Part shown: in pieces, positions 12,188-62,780 of the stretch
Position numbering within the stretch: the stretch's first letter is position 1
Layout: each line of letters opens with the position of its first letter
Assembly (NCBI GenBank): GCA_914767715.1
Contig: OU612069.1
Location: 20,581,387-20,645,386, forward strand
DNA from: Membranipora membranacea
Taxonomy: Eukaryota > Bryozoa > Gymnolaemata > Cheilostomatida > Membraniporidae
DNA length: 64,000 bases
Direction: 5' to 3'
Notes under the pieces: generated by a model
What the model saw: only the letters and a program-made list of their open reading frames with translations
What the model was told of the DNA's origin: nothing
The model's database searches: none
Made by a program: the position numbers and the translations under genes

Positions 12188-13047
12188 TATGTATGTATGT
12201 GTTTTTATTTGGTCTCAATCTCTGAGAAAAAAAACTGTCTCTGTAGGGTGCTCTGTAAAAATTATTAAAACTGTTGATTCTGTAAAAATAAATAAAATGA
12301 TAAGACCATAAAAAAATACTATTACTTTTTGAAGACACTATTTAGGTATTTGATACATTCTGCTCTAAAACATTTGGCACGGATCTGCACGCGGAACTTG
12401 ACTGATTGATATCTGCCTGACGGCAGCTGGTTAAGACGGAGTAGTGGTTCAACTTCGGTGGCAATCATACGGAGGCTCTTTACTTTCAGTATATTAGAGT
12501 AAAGGTCGTCTACGGGTGTGAACGTAAGTTCGCCTGATAGCTAACCTGCAGTTCTTATCACAGATTTTAACTTTTTCTTAGAGTCTGCACTCAGATGACT
12601 ATATAGCACAACCAGGTGGTAGGTGATTACTGACTCTATGAAGGACTTGTAGCAGGTCGTTATTAGTTTCTCAGTGACACCGAGATGGTATAGCTTGGCG
12701 ATTATATGTAGCCTTTGGCGAGCTTTCGCTGTAGTTTTCAAGGTGTTCAGAGTAAAATCCAGTTTGTTGGTAATAATGGTGCCTAAGTATGTAAATTGTT
12801 CTACCTGCTCAATTGAAGTATTGTTTACAAGCAGTTGTGGGTAGCTTGGGTTATCCCTTGCATTGCACATGACCATTTCTTTTGTTTTCTTTGCATTGAG
12901 TATTAGGTCATTATCCGCGCACCATGAGTTGATGGTATTAGTCATTGTTTGAAGTTCAGATGGTCGGTTTTCTGTCAACAATTCAATGATCACAGTGTCG
13001 TCGGCATATTTTACTAGTTTGATGTTGCCTTCCTTGTTTTGCTAAGG
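12188..13047 (-). pseudogene. CR1/L2/Rex-like LINE, 5'-truncated reverse transcriptase and tail
   Basis: Reads right to left. A YADDT catalytic box of the reverse transcriptase lies at about 13000-13015, followed by the usual downstream motif (LNAKKTKEMV, about 12875-12905) and the FTYLG block. A TAG at about 12541-12543 interrupts the frame, but the same frame continues through LPSGRYQSVKFRVQ, the typical C-terminal end of CR1/Jockey-type proteins, and stops near 12325. The tail ends in a short ACAT tetranucleotide run at 12185-12200, as LINEs of this group do. Upstream of the YADD box the frame meets a stop near 13040, so the copy is truncated and dead. Confidence 0.85.
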
Positions 13048-18736: not shown

Positions 18737-19265
18737 TCAGTCCACAATCATTAACCCAGTACAGTGGCTATTGAGCTCAGTGTAGATCATTTTAATTGCG
18801 AGTCGTTTTATGCATTTGAGGTCTTTCTTACATTCATGTGAAGTGAAGTTAAACCAGGATGGTGATGCATAATGTACTGTTGGCAGAATGTTTGATTTGT
18901 AGGTATGAAGAAGGCTTTGTTTACTAACCCCATAACTTTTAACTTTAGTAAGGTCATGGCACATTGATCTAACGCTGCTAGTGACGTTATCAACATGGTT
19001 GTTTAATTTCAAGTTACAACACACAGTTTCTCCAAGTAGCTTGAAAGTGTTGACATTTTCAACCTGTTTATTTGCTATGGTGATGGTTGGAGTATCTGGT
19101 GGTTTATTGAGGCTGATAACCATTGATTTAGTTTGTTGGAGTTGATGTTAGTTGGGTACGTGGATAACACTACAGCCTACACTGATAGCTCCAGCTAGAT
19201 CAGTGTATGCTGTAGTGTTGTCCACGTACTGTATAGATGTCTTCAGAATCCTTCTCTGAAGAGAC
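18737..19265 (-). pseudogene. Second LINE reverse transcriptase fragment, broken
   Basis: Reads right to left. It has a degenerate catalytic box YVDNTTAYTD (second D of the YxDD box replaced by N) near 19200-19230, an in-frame TAA near 19150, then QQTKSMVISLN, TFKLLGETV and TVHYASPSWF, the downstream blocks of CR1/Jockey-type enzymes. The stretch carrying the catalytic box overlaps a near-perfect inverted repeat (19156-19229), so part of the box is present in both orientations. Confidence 0.75.
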
Positions 19266-19585
19266 GATTTAGATTTTGATTGAAATTTGTTTTATAATGA
19301 TTAATCTTTGAAGATTCTTGCAAAGGGCAGCAAGCTAAACAGTCATTAGTCTATTCCATGCTTGCTCCTAGTGTGTTGCAATTATATGTACAACTCTGAA
19401 ATACAAAACTTACAGACACAGCATAACATTGTGGCCTACAAAATCAAAGAACTTACATCCACCACAGTATCCTTGGTTAAGAGAAGATATCTGAGTTGGA
19501 AACTATTGTTGTTCAAAAAGTTTAAGAATTTGAATAAAGCAACAGAATTATCATGGTGGGAGTCATACTTCTACAGGAGATAACT

Positions 19586-19650
19586 ATGCAGCCGCCTGTA
19601 CACAAGGCACCTAACCGATCAGGCCAGCTCATCATTTGAGTGACCAGCTA
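19586..19650 (-). repeat. tRNA-like SINE fragment
   Basis: On the minus strand the segment reads GGCCTGATCGGTTAGGTGCC, like a pol III A box region of the SINE family at 21.1 and 53.2 kb. It lies where the third exon of the neighbouring decayed peptide gene would be expected, as a SINE also sits in that intron of the intact copy. Confidence 0.35.
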
Positions 19651-19738
19651 AGATGCTCATTAAAATGCTCACTTCAAATACTATTCATGTGGAGACTAAG
19701 ACAAATTTGATAACTCATTACATGCAAGTTGAACTAAC

Positions 19739-20172
19739 GTTAGCATCTGGTATTGCACCAAACATCAGCAAAACCATCAGCACAGAAATCGGCCAATCTT
19801 TCATTGTGTTTATAGGGAAGCAAATATCCTATAAAATGTGAACATTCAACAGAATAAAAACAATGTAAACTATCAGTGTTTCACAATGTGGTATATGATG
19901 TTTTATTTGTGACATGTAATGTGGCCGAATGCCTATTAATGACTTTGCCTCAAATGCAAAAAACAAAACAACTTTGAGGTAGCACTTTCAAACTTTCAAC
20001 TAAGTGCTCAATCCTTTATTTTGTACTCAATTTTGAACTACATTATGCTAATGTGTGACTTCTGTTCAATTAGTTGATATAGAATACAAATCAAACAGAT
20101 GCACTTACACAAGCTAGTCAAAGAAAAAGATATTTCTTGTAACTCACTAATTTATGTGATGAGCTTTGTACC
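19739..20172 (-). pseudogene. Decayed paralogue of the secreted Cys-hairpin peptide gene
   Basis: A 5' non-coding exon (about 20148-20172, donor GTGAGT) lies below a TATAAA at 20199-20204. An acceptor at 19829 opens an exon with ATG at 19804 and a 22-codon signal-peptide segment (charged start, then VLMVLLMFGAI) ending at 19739. The layout, acceptor context (ATTTTATAG then GATATTTGC) and signal segment match the intact gene at 53 kb. The donor here is GTTAGT rather than GTAAGT, the exon is six codons shorter, and no Cys-bearing last exon is visible downstream, so I infer a dead or incomplete copy. If unspliced, the frame stops six codons on. Confidence 0.62.
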
Positions 20173-20520
20173 GAGGGTTGCTACATCAAAAAATCGACTT
20201 TATAGTCAAATACACTATGGAGCTTACAAGGACATTTAAGGATATAATTGCCACTTGGCAAATAAAAAGTATGATGTCAAAGCAACCATTCTTAGAAATA
20301 GTTGAGAATTAAAGACAGAGCAGGATGCGGATCAGAAGGTCACTCATATGAACACGGATGCAAATAGATACCATAATTGCTTGATAATGAGAGTTCGCTT
20401 AATAGTAATTTTATAAATAGAAGTATTCGATTCGTAATTATGGTACTATTGGCTGTTTTGTCACTATCGGGAGATACCAACTTGTAGGGAGAATGCATAT
20501 TGTCGGTTAATTGATGATCA
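19893..20520. repeat. Duplicated promoter block, copy A
   Basis: Closely matches 61060-61614 continuing at 62016-62045. It covers the 5' exon, TATA box and first intron of the peptide-gene paralogue. This copy keeps the uninterrupted site AGGGAGAA (20486-20493) into which an element inserted in the other copy. It also has about 55 bases near 20390-20445 that are absent from copy B. Confidence 0.85.
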
Positions 20521-21087: not shown

Positions 21088-21250
21088 TTGCATGTTAAGC
21101 AATGGGGAGAGGTATACACCCGAGGTTGCTTGGGGCTGGAACAATCAACAATGAATGCTCCCCCAGTGGGGCTCGAACCAGCAACTCCTGAGGCACTAAT
21201 CGCCTTGCAGTGAATAGCAAGCGCGCTAACCGATTGCGGCATCTCACCAT
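21088..21250 (-). repeat. tRNA-derived SINE
   Basis: On the minus strand: A box TCGGTTAGCGCGC (about 21221-21233) and B box GGTTCGAGCCC (about 21169-21179), followed by a body ending near 21090. Same family as the SINE at 53.2 kb, sharing the TTGCTATTCACTGCAAGGCG core. Confidence 0.75.
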
Positions 21251-45423: not shown

Positions 45424-48400
45424 CTACTTCATCTGCATCACGATGTCAGCTGGCGATTTCCCCTCAGTGATTTCTGCCAAATCACTAATATTTAGCCCAC
45501 TCACATCTGTCGGAATAGTATTGTGATGCAACCCAAGAACCAATCTCTCTAAGAGCTTTTCTCTGGTCTCCTAAAATTATTGCGAATAAATAATTAATAG
45601 CTGTAGCTGTAAAGCTGTACACAATGAAATCATAAATTAGTGATGTCATGACATCAGGGAGCGAGAAACAGTCACAGCACCCATACTGTTTCTCGGGAAT
45701 ACCTTACTTCCTAATATATAGATGTATAAACACCGTCTTTTATTTCGATGGACACCCCCAGTGGTCTAAGTGGACTTTTTCCTTTGTAGGAACTCAATTC
45801 TCTGGGTTGAAAATTGTTTTGAGAATTCTTTGCAATTTCTAGATCAAATTATGAAGAAATATGGATCTGTAATAGTATGATTGATTTCTGGGCAAAAGAC
45901 ACAACTTCACACTGTTTTTGCACAGAATCCAGTGGGAACTATATTATAAAGTTTGCCCCTCTATATTTCTTTGTGGGAACACAGTTCCCACTCACTCAGA
46001 ACACTGGAGATCCCCCGTAGATATCCACTGAAAAATCCACTAGATATCCTTGATCACAAAACATTTTTATAGCTCCACACACAACCAACCAGCAGTTGCT
46101 GGTGCATCATCACAGAGTCAGTGTCACAGATCCAGCCCGGAAGGTGAGTTGACTGTAGTAATAGTTTTAAGACCTATTAGTTCAGGGTATAGCTCTCACA
46201 CGTCAAAATATAGCTGATTTAATCCTGGCTGGCTTACCTTATCAGACATCCCAATGTGGATAATGCTACCCAGCCTCCGTATGAAGGCTGGGTCGATCCC
46301 TTCCCTCAGGTTTGAGGTTGCCATCACAGGCACTTGTTCGGCAAGCCCTTGAAATAACATAAAGAATTATAACTGCCATTATTATTGGGATATGTATGGG
46401 TCTAAGTCGTCATTGCGGAGAGGGTTACCCCTCTAGATTACAGGTACAATGGTTTGCCTGATGTTTGGTGCTGCCATTTATATAACATCATAATGACAAT
46501 CTAGCTCGTCATCTCCGAGTTCCATTAAAATTTCTTGATTTAAATGACTAGGCGACTTGCACAGTACAGCCATGACAGTAAGACAACAGCCATTGCTGCA
46601 GCACGTCAGCTTTCAAATTAAACTCATCGGTGATTTTCCAGGTTGTTTAGTTTATTGCAAAATAACTGTTTAATGATAAATATATACATTTATGATGAAA
46701 AATTTTCTTTATCAAAGTAAAAATGGAGGAGGAGAAAAATTTAATTGGTTTGATAGCTTTGCTGCAGGAGTCATCGCTCTCACCATTCAGAGTAAGCTCT
46801 ATGATTTTCTAAAAAGGAGAATAACTACACAGTTGGTTTCCTACAATGCATTTGGTCCAACTACACTGATACAGCAGGGATATATTGCTTCTTTCAAGAC
46901 TCCTTTGTATTCTAAGGAGTTGTCCTCTCTTGTTCAGAGGTCTAAAGTCAATAGTTGAACGATTCGTTAGATTGAATGGCAACAGAGCCAGATGGTACAC
47001 TCAAAGTAGGGCTCATATAGTAAAAAGTGATCACGCACTTGGAATTTGCCTAGCAGTGACCTTTGTTATCTGTTTGTTATTTTTGCAGAGATACTAAGCT
47101 AGGACTTACTTGAAAGACCCCACACAATCTTTAGTGTTTCAAGCAAACTTGACTACCTGAAAATGCCAATCTTAAAATCTGTGTGTCATGTCATTGTACT
47201 GATCCAGATAGCATATCTTGACAAGCTTTGTTGGTGCCCCCTCCTCAACCAACATAACCAACATCAATGTTGTCATGACAGGCCATTAGCCGGTTTACTT
47301 ACATCTTTTTTTAAGACACTGAAGTTAACGTCGCCCTTCTGATTAGGTGCAGCCCTATAAAGATCCCCCATCTTCTCGATCACTACAGTATCATTGTAGC
47401 CCAGTGCCCTCACAGCACCTTTGAAAGATAGATATATCCATTACTAGCAGGCAGCAAAGGCAGTGCATGCAAGCAAACAAAATTGGGGTAAAACATAGCA
47501 TAACATAACATTATTTCGTAAAGAACATAATGGGGTGCTTTGTCCTGTATGTGAAGGAAGACTTTTGTCAGATTGATGAATTATTGTGCCTGAATGTGTT
47601 GGTGTTGGCAGTAAGTTACAGCCTAATAAAGCTAGAGATTGGCCTTAGCCTAGCTCAACTAAGTTTCGGTAATTTCTATTTATCTAAACCAAGTTCTCTC
47701 AAACTCTTCTCCTTGACAAACCCCCCTCAGAAAAATTAAAAATGCTCCAGTTATAAGACACCCCACAGCTATAAGACACCCCACAGCTATAAGACACCGT
47801 GTCTTATAAGTGAATCATATCAGTAGTTGATGTTTGGAAGCTCTCCATCTTTGAATCAAGCGTCTATTAATGTTCAATTCCCTTGCAGTCTTGTCAAGGT
47901 TGTTATTCTTCTCAACTGTTCTCAATACTTCCAGTTTCTGCTGAATGGTGTTTTAGGTTCTTGGCATGTTTTATTTATTTTGAAAGACTGTGAGAGAGAT
48001 ATGATATGCTGATTGTTGAAAATTTTGAATTTTGTGGCACACATTCACTCACTACAAATGAGTAGTTTTGGGGAAAAAGCTGCCCTCAATGGGTTTTGAA
48101 CACACAACTTCATGATTACATATCGCACACTTAACCACTGAGCTATTCAGCTTCGGTGATTATAAAAGGTTTTAGTCCAAGCTAAATATAAAATGATAGT
48201 CGCGTCTATATGCTACTCTCTTACAGCCGCCTTCACTTATAAATCGCGCGATCTACAGGTGAGGGTACAAACAACTCACTTTCAATCCTCTGATTTGAGG
48301 TGTATCCGAATTCCACACACAATTGTGAGTATATCTGCAATAAGAATTAGTATGAGGATACAACACAAATAGGTCTTTATGGCCAATGCAATATCATTTT

Positions 48401-52630: not shown

Positions 52631-52680
52631 CGTAAAATGGAATCTCCCTATTTTGTATTTAGATTACTTGGCAAGTATGT

Positions 52681-52862
52681 ATGATATGCTGATTGTTGAA
52701 AAATTTGAATTTTTTGGCACACATTCACTCACTACAAATGAGTAGTTTTGGGGAAAAAGCTGCCCTCAGTGGGTTTTGAACTCACAACTTCATGATTACA
52801 AGTCACACACATTTCCACTGAGCTATTCAGCTTCGGTGATTAGGTTTTAGTCCAAATTAAAT
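52681..52862 (-). repeat. tRNA-derived SINE, copy 2
   Basis: Matches 48003-48190 from ATATGCTGATTGTTGAAA to TTTTAGTCCAA with scattered substitutions and a short gap (lacking TATAAAA near 52845). It lies just past the 3' end of the secreted-peptide gene. Confidence 0.8.
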
Positions 52863-52896
52863 ATAAAAGAGACAGTGATCTATGCTTTGAAAGATA

Positions 52897-52902
52897 TTTA
52901 TT
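52897..52902 (-). terminator. Poly(A) signal of the secreted-peptide gene
   Basis: AATAAA on the minus strand 85 bases after the stop codon, the first such signal downstream. Confidence 0.55.
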
Positions 52903-52987
52903 TTAAAGTTATTAATCCATTGTATAACCAAATTTCATATTAATCCTAAAAACAAAGTCATTTCTCTATTTGTAATTTAAGAAGTTA

Positions 52988-53514
52988 TTAGCAGTGTTTT
53001 TCACACGATTCAACCTCGCTGGTGCTTCCAGCTCCGGCGCAAGCAGCTACACATTTCTGAAACAAAAAAGTGACATACATAGAATAAAGTTTGACATTAG
53101 ATTGCGGCCGACAACACCAAGCAAGTGATATTCACCCACCATGACATTCTTGATTGATAGAAGGTTCCAAGTGGGAAATATCGAGGGTCAAAGAATAACA
53201 TAATTTGGATGAAGCGGCAGAGGACTGGAACGATCAAATTTGAAAGCTCTCTAAGTGGGATCGAACCAACAACTCCTCGGTCACAAATCGCCTTGCAGTG
53301 AATAGCAAGCGCCCTAACCGCTTACGCCATCACATCTCATTTTCCTAGAGTGTTTAAATAAAAATGCTCATCATAATGCTTAATAAAAATGTAGAGAATT
53401 GAAAGTTCATTACATGCAAGTTTAACTTACTTGTGCATCTCCGACTGTGCTTGCTTCTGCGATTGTGCCAAACATAAGCAAAACCATCACAATAGAAATC
53501 AGCCAAGCTCTCAT
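52988..53514 (-). CDS. Small secreted peptide precursor with C-x3-C...C-x3-C
   Basis: Two coding exons encode a 50-residue precursor: 53431-53514 (28 codons, ATG at 53514) and 52988-53056 (22 codons plus TAA), joined at GTAAGT and a TTTTTTGTTTCAG acceptor in phase 0. Residues 1-21 form a signal peptide: Arg at 2, hydrophobic core about 5-15, small residues before a likely cut after Ala21. The last exon holds four cysteines at 30, 34, 46 and 50 of the precursor, spaced C-x3-C-x11-C-x3-C. This spacing is known from helical-hairpin disulfide peptides, which include antimicrobial peptides and some potassium-channel toxins, so a defence or effector role is plausible but only inferred. A 5' non-coding exon (about 53811-53850) lies upstream; a SINE sits in the coding intron. 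No similarity search was possible. Confidence 0.72.
53205..53345 (-). repeat. tRNA-derived SINE in the secreted-peptide gene intron
   Basis: Minus-strand B box GGTTCGATCCC (about 53257-53267) and an A box region GCGGTTAGGGCGC near 53310-53322. Shares TGCTATTCACTGCAAGGCGA with the SINE at 21.1 kb. Same strand as the host gene. Confidence 0.75.
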
Positions 53515-53810
53515 CGTGTTATGTAGGCAGGCAAATATCCTATAAAATGTGAACACTCAATGTACAAAAGGAAATAGTTGTATATTAGTATTTCAAAATA
53601 ACCATAGATATTGACATAGACATTTGATATTGCACTTACAATCCTTCAACAAGGTGTTATATCTTTTATCCTTTATTTGGGTATTGAAATTCATTATGCT
53701 AATATGTGATTTCTGTTAAATCAGTCAGCGTAGAATAGTTTTCTGAATACAATTCAAAAAGAGGCATCAACAAAAACAAGTCAAAGAAGAAGCTATTTAT
53801 TTTAACTCAC

Positions 53811-53850
53811 CAAGTAATGTGATGATGTTCGTATCCACAGACGCGAGTTT
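53811..53850 (-). other. 5' non-coding exon of the secreted-peptide gene
   Basis: Lies 27-32 bases below the TATA box and ends CATTACTTG before GTGAGT. The next acceptor is at 53540 (ATTTTATAG), 25 bases before the ATG at 53514. The exon end, donor and acceptor context are shared with the copies at 20.15 and 61.32 kb, which supports the boundaries. Confidence 0.62.
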
Positions 53851-53876
53851 GAGCTCATGACATAACGACGCCTACT

Positions 53877-53882
53877 TTTATA
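53877..53882 (-). promoter_or_regulatory. TATA box of the secreted-peptide gene
   Basis: TATAAA in GGCTATAAAAGTAGG, about 30 bases upstream of the inferred transcript start. The paralogous copies keep TATAAA at 20199-20204 and 61370-61375. Confidence 0.65.
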
Positions 53883-54478
53883 GCCACCTTGACTGCAGAG
53901 CTTTCATCATCAGCATAGGATATGATTGACAGTTGGCAGGATGCTAGCCAATGTGTAGTTCTTTCGTGGAAGTATGAAGAGCACTCAAGCTTGGAAAGGG
54001 GAACAGGATACAGATTGGTTGATTGTTTTGTCATTTCATGTATGAACCAATATCTACATCAGCGATATCAAATTCTAAGATTCTATTGTAATGTTAAAAA
54101 AAAGCTTATTGATTATTCCGTTAAAAAAAGTATTCGATTTATTCCTGGCGTCTCCTGTCTTTAACATGATACATACTTGAAGGCAAAGACAATGACTTTT
54201 TTTTTGAAATTTTTATTCATAATCATTCTGTAGACAAACTGGCTATTGTTAATTGATTGATGATCAGTTTATTGCAAAAGCAGATTCCCAAAAATGGTGT
54301 TTGGCAAAAAAAGGATAAGAAGGACACATACAGATTATTTGTTAAGTTTGAAGTTAAGAATACTACTTTGTCATTTAAAGACTTTGGAAGGACCACAGCA
54401 ATATATTGTCTGGCAGCTATTTCTGCAGTAATCATATTATATTTACACATTTAGAAAAATCAGAGCACTTCTTGGTAC

Positions 54479-54803
54479 AAATTATGTATAGTTGATAGAA
54501 ATTGTCCTCCCTTCTCACCTATGAGCTATGAGGTATCTACGGGGCCTAGTTTTGTCTCGACCTAATAAACTACCACGGTGAAATACCTTCAATTACCATT
54601 CTTTTCCACACATGTTCAACATAATTATAATTCCATTGTCAGGAGACATTTCAAAACGGTAGATGACTTCATTCTTAATTTATACTGTTGTCTCTAGTCC
54701 ATAGAAATGATAGTTTATTGGGTTGGTACAGCCCTAGGCCTCATAGATACCTCATACCTCATAGATGAGAAGGGAGGACAATTTCTAACACGATACATAA
54801 TTT
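54479..54803. mobile_element. 325-bp MITE with about 70-bp inverted ends
   Basis: Left end AAATTATGTATAGTTGATAG and right end complement AAATTATGTATCGTGTTAGA continue as inverted copies through GAAATTGTCCTCCCTTCTCA to GGCCTAG. The centre has no open frame. It lies about 0.6 kb upstream of the secreted-peptide promoter. Target duplication not resolved. Confidence 0.8.
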
Positions 54804-55064
54804 ATATGCAGATGTACTCTGAATTGTCTAAGTGTGAAATTAACGTGTAACTACTGCAGAACCAGCTGCCTGACTAGTTTTTGCTGTGGTTCTTGAGTCT
54901 TTAAGATGATGAACATTGTGTCATAAACAACTTTCAAGGCACATGTATATGGTGTGCCTAAAATGCCCCAAGGAGTACCTCTCTGACAAGTCACAGGTAA
55001 ATTGATTATAATAAATGTAAATATTTGCATAGCTATGATCTAAAATCTCTCATCATGAATTGAT

Positions 55065-55848: not shown

Positions 55849-55983
55849 CAATGACATGATGCACAAAATTGTTTCAATTGGCAACAATTCTATAACTTAC
55901 AACAATCATCTGTCTTAAATGTTCATTTTCATTGATGAAGTACGTATTGTTGTTTGAGTGATCCTCAATTAATTGCAATCATT

Positions 55984-56340
55984 AACTATCAACTTCACAT
56001 TGCAGCAAATTAAGTAGGCATTCCATTTTAAAAAGGGAACAGGATGCAGAATGTTTGATATTTTGTGCCATACCTTACTAAGGCCGGTGATAAAAATGTA
56101 GTTTATTACATAAAAGCTGAGATTGTAAATAGGCATGATGGATTGAAGTGAGGAGTTAAATCTTAGCTGACAGAAAGTTTTCATAATCAAGTGGTCATTG
56201 ATTCAGAAAATAATTTGGGAAATTCATACTAACACAAGCCCATGAAAATATACCTAGTACTGGTGGTCATCAAAATACACGACAGCCTACTAACTAAGCA
56301 TTTGAGAAACTATTATCCAAAGATTGTACGACATTTACAT
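55984..56340. repeat. Local duplicate block R2, copy 1
   Basis: Shares ACATTGCAGCAAATTAAGTA, AAAAAGGGAACAGGATGCAG and TTCATAATCAAGTGGTCATT with 57108-57548 and 62045-62605. It keeps the first part of the longer 62-kb copy and lacks its central part. Confidence 0.8.
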
Positions 56341-56733
56341 GATAGGTAAGCAATACATAAAATGAGATATTCTAAGGCTTTCAAACAACAGACATGCTAG
56401 CAACCTGTTGCTCATAAATTCTAAATTGCTGACAGCACACACGCATTCGCTGGTCCTGTTAGCAAATTTCTTCCTATAATTTTGGCTATACAAATACCTA
56501 GGTCAGGGGGAATTTACCCTCTACACTGCTTAAAAACTTGCCATCCCACAATATTTAATATTCCATGTCAGAGTAAGGTTGTGAAGAAAGCTCTGCTAGG
56601 ATAAATGACTGATACTTATATCCTACATATATACACTAGGGATAGTGTGTTTCCAAAGACCCCACAGGGGATACAACAGCACCTGGCCTAATGCTCCAGT
56701 TCACTGAGTCCACTTCAATTATTTTAATAACCA
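56340..56733. repeat. Local duplicate block R1, copy 2
   Basis: Same direction as copy 1, with about ten single-base differences. A third, shorter copy is at 57548-57745, so the block is a local direct repeat. Confidence 0.85.
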
Positions 56734-57107
56734 ATGTATCTGTAGGTAATTTTTGCGCTAACACAAAAATATTCTAGTAATATTAAGAGTCAAAGCAGGA
56801 TATCAACAAATGGAAAGTCGTGTCATAGGTATTGCAAAATAAGTCCGAGTCACAATGTCAATGTCTATAGTGCTTACATATTGGCTTGGCAGGAAAATAC
56901 TAACCCTGCCTAGCCAAAGCAGAAAACTGTTGTGCATTGTTGTACTTGACTTTGCTGATGAAGCGTCCTCAATAAGTCTAATATTCTACCGTAATGTCTG
57001 ATATATTCCTGACACCGACAGCTGTCACTTCACTGACATGATGCACAAAATTGTTTCAATTGGCAACAATTCTATAACTTCCAAGAATCATCTGTCTGTC
57101 TATCAAC

Positions 57108-57548
57108 ATCACATTGCAGCAAATTAAGTAGGCATTCCATTTTACTGTAAAATTTGGACGTTCTCTTTCGGTTGGAATTTTCCCAACTAAGTGATCAGTT
57201 TGTCATGTTATTCTATTTATTCAGACGAAATCTGCAACTAGAATTGTATAACAGGTGATATTTAAAGATTCGTTAGGAATACAACAGCACATTTTGAGAT
57301 TCAAACATGTAGTTTATTACATGAAAGCTGAGATTGTAAATAGGCATGATGGATTGAAGTGAGGAGTTAAATCTGAGCTGACAGAAAGTTTTCATAATCA
57401 AGTGGTCATTGATTCTGAAAATAATTTGGGAAATTCATACTAACACATGCCCATGAAAATATACCTAGTACTGGTGGTCATCAAAATACACGACAGCCTA
57501 ATAACTAAGCATTTGAGAAACTATTATCCAAAGATTGATCGACATTTA
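57108..57548. repeat. Local duplicate block R2, copy 2
   Basis: Keeps the central part of the 62-kb copy (GTAAAATTTGGACGTTCTCT and following) but lacks the AAAAAGGGAACAGG part kept in copy 1. Confidence 0.8.
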
Positions 57549-57745
57549 CATGATAGGTAAGCAATACATAAAATGAGATATTCTAAGGCTTTCAAACAAC
57601 AGACATGCTAGCAACCTGTTGCTCATAAATTCTAAATTGCTGACAGCACACACGCATTCGCTGGTCCTGGTTCTTCCTATTTTTTTAGCTATACAAACAC
57701 CTAGGTTAGGCGGAATTTACCCTCTAGACTGCTTAAAAACTTGTA
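57548..57745. repeat. Local duplicate block R1, copy 3 (partial)
   Basis: Matches the first 200 bases of R1, with a small deletion after TCGCTGGTCCTG. It breaks off where the block shared with 63.04 kb begins (about 57755). Confidence 0.8.
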
Positions 57746-61059: not shown

Positions 61060-61614
61060 GTATATGATGTTTTATTTGTGACATGTAATGTGGCCGAATG
61101 CCTATTAATGACTTTGTCTCAAATACAAAAAAAAACAAAACAACTTTGAGGTAGCACTTTCAAACTTTCAACTAAGTGCTCAATCCTTTATTTGTACTCA
61201 ATTTTGAACTACATTATGCTAATGTGTGACTTCTGTTCAATTAGTTGATATAGAATACAAATCAAACAGATGCACTTACACAAACTAGTCAAAGAAAAAG
61301 ATATTTCTTGTAACTCACTAAGTTATGTGATGAGCTTTGTACCGAGGGTTGCTACATCAAAAAATCGACTTTATAGTCAAATACACTACAGAGCTTACGA
61401 GGATATTTTAGGATATAATTGCCACTTGGCAAATAAAAAGTATGATGTCAAAGCAACCATTCCTAGAAATAGTTGAGAATTAAAGACAGAGCAGGATGCG
61501 GATCAGAAGGTCACTCATATGGACACGGATGCAAATAGATACCATAATTGTTTGATAATTCTTGTACTATTGGCTGTTTCGTCACTATCGGGAGATACAA
61601 ACTTGTAGGGAGAA
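61060..61614. repeat. Duplicated promoter block, copy B
   Basis: Matches 19893-20485 closely. On the minus strand it keeps the TATA box (61370-61375) and the donor GTGAGT (61313-61318) of the 5' exon. Homology stops at 61060, just before the signal-peptide exon should begin, so this promoter no longer drives a peptide exon in this window. It continues at 62016 after an inserted element. Confidence 0.85.
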
Positions 61615-62015: not shown

Positions 62016-62044
62016 AGGGAGAATACGTATTGTCGATTAATTGA

Positions 62045-62605
62045 TTAACTATCATCATCACATTGCAGCAAATCAAGTAGGCACTCCACTTTAAAAAGGG
62101 AACAGGATGCAGAATGTTTGATATTTTGTGTCATACCTTACTAAGGCTGGTACAGGATCACAAAATCAGGACTGTTTCGGCTTTTTGGGGTTCAGTTAGT
62201 TTTCGAGTGTAAAATTTGGACGTTCTCTTTTGGTTTGAATCTTCCCAACCAAGTGATCATTTTGTCATGTTATTCTATTTATTCAGACAAAATCTGCGAC
62301 TCGAATTGTATAACCGGTGATATTTATAGATTCATTACAACAGCACATTTTGAGATTCAAACATGTAGTTTATTACATGAAGCTGATATTGTAAATAGGC
62401 ATGATGGAGGAGGTGAGGAGATAAATCTGAGCTGACAGAAAGTTTTCATAATCAAGTGGTCATTGATTCAGATAATAATTTGGGAAATTCATACTAACAC
62501 AGGCCCATAAAAATATACCTAGTACTGGTGGTCATCAAAATACACGACAGCCTAGTAAGTAAGCATTTGAGAAACTATTATCCAAAGATTGTCGACATTT
62601 ACATG
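62045..62605. repeat. Local duplicate block R2, copy 3 (longest)
   Basis: Contains both parts that are split between the copies at 56 and 57 kb. It follows directly on the promoter copy at 61 kb. Confidence 0.8.
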
Positions 62606-62780
62606 AAAGCTGAAATTACAATTAGGCACGAAGGATTAATATAAGGCTTTACTTTGACTGTCAGAAAATGTCTTATCAATGATCACAGTGGAAATCAGGT
62701 TTACACTACTATATTGAAGTTGAAAATTAATTTAAGCGTAAATGAAATAGTGAATGTCTGGTTGTGTTTCTCTTGAGCAA

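Follow-up and report, generated by a model that had tools for sequence, protein, structure and literature searches.

A candidate three-exon gene lies on the minus strand of Membranipora membranacea chromosome 5, within a 64-kb stretch of DNA that was analysed as a whole (hereafter, the window); its parts are listed in Table 1. An earlier note, made from the letters of the window, had described here a TATA box, a 5' exon with GTGAGT, an acceptor 25 bases ahead of an ATG, a phase-0 intron bounded by GTAAGT and TTTCAG, and a last exon with the cysteine pattern C-x3-C-x11-C-x3-C that ends in TAA and is followed by AATAAA, and on re-reading the sequence we found each of these where it had been placed. 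Exon 2 would code for a signal peptide and the beginning of the mature peptide, while the pyrimidine-rich acceptor of exon 3, the stop codon and the AATAAA all fall inside 160 bases. Splice sites were judged by consensus alone, the donors being scored against a 9-base consensus; the exon-1 donor matches it at 7/9 bases and the exon-2 donor at 8/9, values that are equalled or bettered by 4.0% and 0.66%, respectively, of the 29,015 GT sites counted in 264 kb, made up of the window and its two flanks of 100 kb. A sigma-70 promoter scan was set aside, having been made for bacteria. Intron 2 holds a short repeat that is tRNA-like by eye (53222-53334, minus strand; 82% to 21133-21246), to which at least 76 of the 77 genome matches listed belong, often arranged in tandem at a spacing of about 404 bases. 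Rfam (at gathering cut-offs) and ARAGORN gave no match in the window, this repeat included. A second repeat, again tRNA-like by eye, lies directly 3' of the gene (52680-52868; 91% to 48000-48193), and an inverted repeat lies upstream of the gene (54371-54575 / 54708-54909; 78% over about 200 bases).

Table 1. Parts of the candidate gene (copy A) and extent of its two further copies; positions are those of the window, except in the first row, which gives chromosome positions
Feature	Position	Strand	Remarks
Gene locus, Membranipora membranacea (bryozoan, sea mat), chromosome 5	20,634,283-20,635,268		
TATA box TATAAAA, copy A	53882-53876	-	Read in the sequence; TATAAA at the matching place in copies B and C
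Exon 1, non-coding, copy A	53811..53852	-	Start inferred about 30 bases past the TATA box; end set by donor TTG/GTGAGT (final exon base 53811)
Intron 1, in 5' untranslated region, copy A	53540..53810	-	271 bases, GTGAGT...TTTTATAG
Exon 2, copy A	53431..53539	-	Acceptor TTTTATAG, exon from 53539; 25 bases 5' UTR, ATG 53514, 28 codons (coding part 53514-53431)
Intron 2, phase 0, copy A	53057..53430	-	374 bases; CAA/GTAAGT donor, TTTGTTTCAG acceptor; holds tRNA-like repeat
Exon 3, copy A	52988..53056	-	22 codons, C-x3-C-x11-C-x3-C, TAA 52990-52988
Poly(A) signal AATAAA, copy A	52897..52902	-	Read in the sequence
Copy B	19330..20207	-	TATA box; exon 1 as far as 20148; exon 2 at 19828-19739, with ATG 19804; exon 3 from 19395; low end set at 66 bases into exon 3
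Copy C	61060..61559	-	Limited to promoter, exon 1 and initial part of intron 1; 97% identity with copy B

Copy B was found 33 kb from copy A and can be aligned with it over a stretch that begins at the TATA box and reaches into exon 3. Its signal exon (19804-19739) was recovered at E 8e-06 to 2e-05 when the exon peptides were compared with the window, and 13 of the 22 aligned residues of the two signal exons are identical. Copies A, B and C have one and the same exon-1 donor, GTGAGTTA, a 25-base stretch over the exon-2 acceptor is identical in A and B, and both acceptors are present in copy B, with the TTTCAGA of exon 3 kept. At its end, exon 2 of copy B is shorter than that of copy A by 18 bases, six codons whose absence keeps the frame, and exon 3 of copy B has an in-frame TAG (19353-19351) after 14 codons as well as a 10-base gap. 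Its second donor reads GTTAGT, which we considered as a weakened site; since this matches the consensus at 7/9 bases, the score also of copy A's exon-1 donor, it was not counted as broken. Copy B is probably a dead paralogue. Its intron 2 may hold a decayed copy of the copy A repeat, judged by eye (BLAST did not detect the repeat there), and a palindromic element (19156-19229) lies 3' of copy B, past the end of the A/B homology. Genome searches with the precursor and with exon-2 DNA returned copies A and B only (copy B at E 0.69 with the precursor), and a search with the exon-1 region of copy C returned copies C and B only; as this last search missed copy A (72% identical), older copies would be missed too. 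A fourth copy did not turn up in the window or in the 100 kb on either side of it, and copy A is the sole intact member found by genome-wide searches of limited sensitivity. Just beyond copy C lies one of the duplicated stretches (62033-62609 versus 55965-57556) that are 89-94% identical.

A layout of this kind was set against chance in the same 264 kb. Under strict rules (a signal-like ATG exon and GTRAG, then an acceptor rich in pyrimidines and a last exon whose cysteines number exactly four, spaced C-x3-C...C-x3-C) a single model was found, that of copy A, whereas 20 sequences of equal length simulated by a first-order Markov model held none; under looser rules (a signal-like exon plus GTRAGT) there were three, copy A scoring highest at 10.43 versus 6.05 and 4.38. 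The rules of both scans were written with the candidate already known, which makes the outcome look more surprising than it is. The motif by itself is no rarity: two instances of C-x3-C-x8-14-C-x3-C appear when the window is read in all six frames, and the second occurrence spans an intron-exon border of copy B. Comparison of the 50-residue precursor with 5.8 billion proteins gave no candidate with enough common words to be scored, and an alignment of the precursor with the truncated copy B product likewise gave none, in searches by which short peptides are easily missed. Pfam gave no match, nor did the PDB sequences when searched with the 22-residue core. Searched with the alignment, the PDB sequences returned four non-significant rows, namely two tryptase inhibitors (E 0.64 and 0.71), CD69 (E 1.2) and the potassium-channel toxin alpha-KTx 18.1 (E 1.4); although this toxin would agree with a toxin role for the peptide, it was not used, given its E-value.

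The presence of a paralogue with a like layout and a conserved signal exon suggests that the gene is real, which we consider likely; the earlier proposal, that three exons here code for a secreted peptide with four cysteines, draws support from the layout, from the second copy and from the retained frame. Our working explanation, to which as a whole we give a probability of roughly 0.6, is that copy A is a genuine and probably functional gene whose predicted product is a secreted hairpin peptide that binds a protein target. The transcript would be spliced from three exons and give a precursor of 50 residues, in which the first 28 residues, including a hydrophobic core and an AEA site, precede KC-x3-C-x11-C-x3-C; all four cysteines of the precursor belong to this pattern, and there is no fifth. 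In a home-made rule scan, cleavage scored best after residue 19. We prefer cleavage between AEA and S, after residue 21, as the most likely, and removal of the signal peptide there would leave a mature peptide of 29 residues, made up of STVGDAQ and the 22-residue four-cysteine core, with a predicted charge at pH 7 of -2.48 (-1.19 for the core) and with no Tyr, Phe, Leu or Arg. Its calculated average mass is 2829.1 Da in reduced form and would be about 2825.1 Da once two disulfides had formed. In the secretory pathway, bonds that we guess to be Cys1-Cys4 and Cys2-Cys3 would hold two short helices side by side, and the peptide would be released into the coelomic fluid or at the colony surface. 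The peptide being acidic, binding to a protein is likelier than lysis, and we suppose that it would act on a receptor, a channel or an enzyme (the target is a guess) and not by piercing membranes; a role in defence or deterrence is likewise a guess. The same precursor might instead yield a small signalling peptide of the colony, a neuropeptide or hormone, in keeping with a signal peptide ahead of a short, acidic four-cysteine peptide of which few copies were found. Read from the sequence, however, the precursor contains neither a dibasic cleavage site nor a C-terminal amidation glycine, and we think a signalling role unlikely.

The exact form of the mature peptide depends on exon 3, the least conserved part of the gene between copies A and B. 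In a MAFFT alignment, identities were 25/42 in exon 1, 184/257 in intron 1, 52/66 in the coding part of exon 2 (the best-kept part), 201/341 in intron 2 and 31/66 in exon 3, and a pairwise aligner gave exon 3 37/62 with gaps and 24/66 without. Exon 3 reached alignment z-scores of 1.6 to 2.5, compared with 5.7 in exon 1 and a range of 6.0 to 10.1 across exon 2 and three stretches of intron, and the stretch past exon 3 does not align (z -0.1). Because exon 3 barely aligns between the copies, copy B supports the gene but leaves the precise mature peptide unconfirmed. We considered whether exon 3, being less alike than the introns, is under positive selection, and do not claim it: decay or a breakpoint explains its divergence equally well, given that no alignment continues past exon 3 and that copy B has both a stop and a 10-base gap there. 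A real gene with a different last exon, or with extra exons, would make a longer mature peptide or one with another cysteine pattern, and besides the poor conservation of exon 3 such a gene has in its favour that the splice sites were called by consensus and that the strict scan sought only four-cysteine last exons. The close grouping of acceptor, stop and AATAAA around exon 3 and the retention of its acceptor in copy B speak against it, and we judge it distinctly unlikely.

We have also weighed whether copy A could be a dead or never-expressed relic of a real ancestral gene whose frame is intact by luck, as might be expected where copy B is broken, copy C is truncated and no relatives were found outside among 5.8 billion proteins. 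Against this, the frame, both donors, both acceptors, the TATA box and the AATAAA of copy A are jointly intact. In a neutral simulation of 20,000 runs, which assigned a single lineage half of the intron divergence and half of the gap rate, the frame alone was retained in 3.5% of runs (0.035) and the frame plus the eight splice bases in 0.57% (0.0057), figures that rest on the MAFFT alignment with its weak intron 2. The pairwise aligner found less divergence in the introns (193/252 and 232/314) than did MAFFT, and with these higher identities the odds of neutral retention would rise. We regard a relic as quite improbable, and the statistics provide modest evidence that copy A is maintained by selection.

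With respect to the fold, the earlier note had suggested a helical hairpin. AlphaFold2, given a single sequence in the exon-3 frame of which the leading 8 residues are intron-derived, returned a helix-turn-helix (helices 3-15 and 20-29 of a model that includes those 8 residues) with a pLDDT of 82 and a pTM of only 0.38, and a Foldseek search with this model gave no significant structural match. Its top row was a plant alpha-hairpinin at E 3.8, and 13 of the 16 rows, which we take not to be alpha-hairpinin-like (transducer helices, encapsulin cargo, polymerase and others), were set aside as generic helical pairs. A helical-hairpin fold of the peptide is plausible, with low certainty.

With known disulfide-stabilized helical hairpins the bryozoan peptide shares C1-x3-C2-xn-C3-x3-C4 and the lack of any other cysteine. 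Plant alpha-hairpinins (BWI-2c, VhTI, EcAMP1 and others) are cut from long multi-module or vicilin-linked precursors (PMC7191063), whereas the predicted bryozoan precursor has a single module in 50 residues; in addition, the bryozoan gene is that of an animal and has an intron between signal and mature part, and no sequence kinship with the plant peptides could be detected, in comparisons where short peptides are easily missed. Trypsin-inhibiting alpha-hairpinins are described as having Arg at the reactive site (PMC7191063), a residue absent from the 29 predicted here. Closer in size are kappa-hefutoxins and OmTx of scorpions and vil14a and flf14a-c of cone snails, peptides of 22-27 residues with the same cysteine motif, among which the potassium-channel toxins act through a functional dyad of Lys with Tyr, Phe or Leu (PMC7191063). 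The bryozoan core has 22 residues within its predicted 29, but the dyad partner is missing, and no sequence kinship with these hairpins was found in the protein and PDB sequence searches. The antimicrobial or channel-toxin role hinted at by the earlier note is unsupported, the peptide being acidic and without Tyr, Phe, Leu or Arg, features that speak against a trypsin inhibitor as well. A membrane-active antimicrobial peptide of the classic sort, which the hairpin motif shared with plant alpha-hairpinins would allow, is very improbable, since the negative charge of the bryozoan peptide contrasts with the net positive charge given as a common trait of antimicrobial peptides in two reviews (PMC7191063, PMC11591084).

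A wider reading is that the gene represents a bryozoan-specific family of secreted helical hairpins, independent of those of plants, scorpions and cone snails, in which a conserved signal exon is joined to a fast-changing mature exon, as in venom and immune peptides, and whose products might be used against predators, competitors or microbes or in colony recognition; we put this forward as a doubtful possibility. If transcribed, the gene would code for a candidate cysteine peptide secreted by a bryozoan, and the simple hairpin would have appeared again in an unrelated lineage. A thin search by titles of the open-licence PubMed Central literature found no description of a bryozoan secreted cysteine peptide. 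The locus also illustrates how a paralogue can reveal a gene whose pieces are 22 to 28 codons long. Public poly(A) RNA-seq from the same M. membranacea specimen exists (ERR6464929; PMC10290214), and a test of the gene would therefore be cheap; for the peptide itself, the places to look in a bryozoan are in our view coelomic fluid or the whole colony, and not skin or glands, as had been suggested. Elsewhere in the window, a reverse transcriptase fragment (RVT_1, E 2e-08) lies at 12541-13041 on the minus strand.
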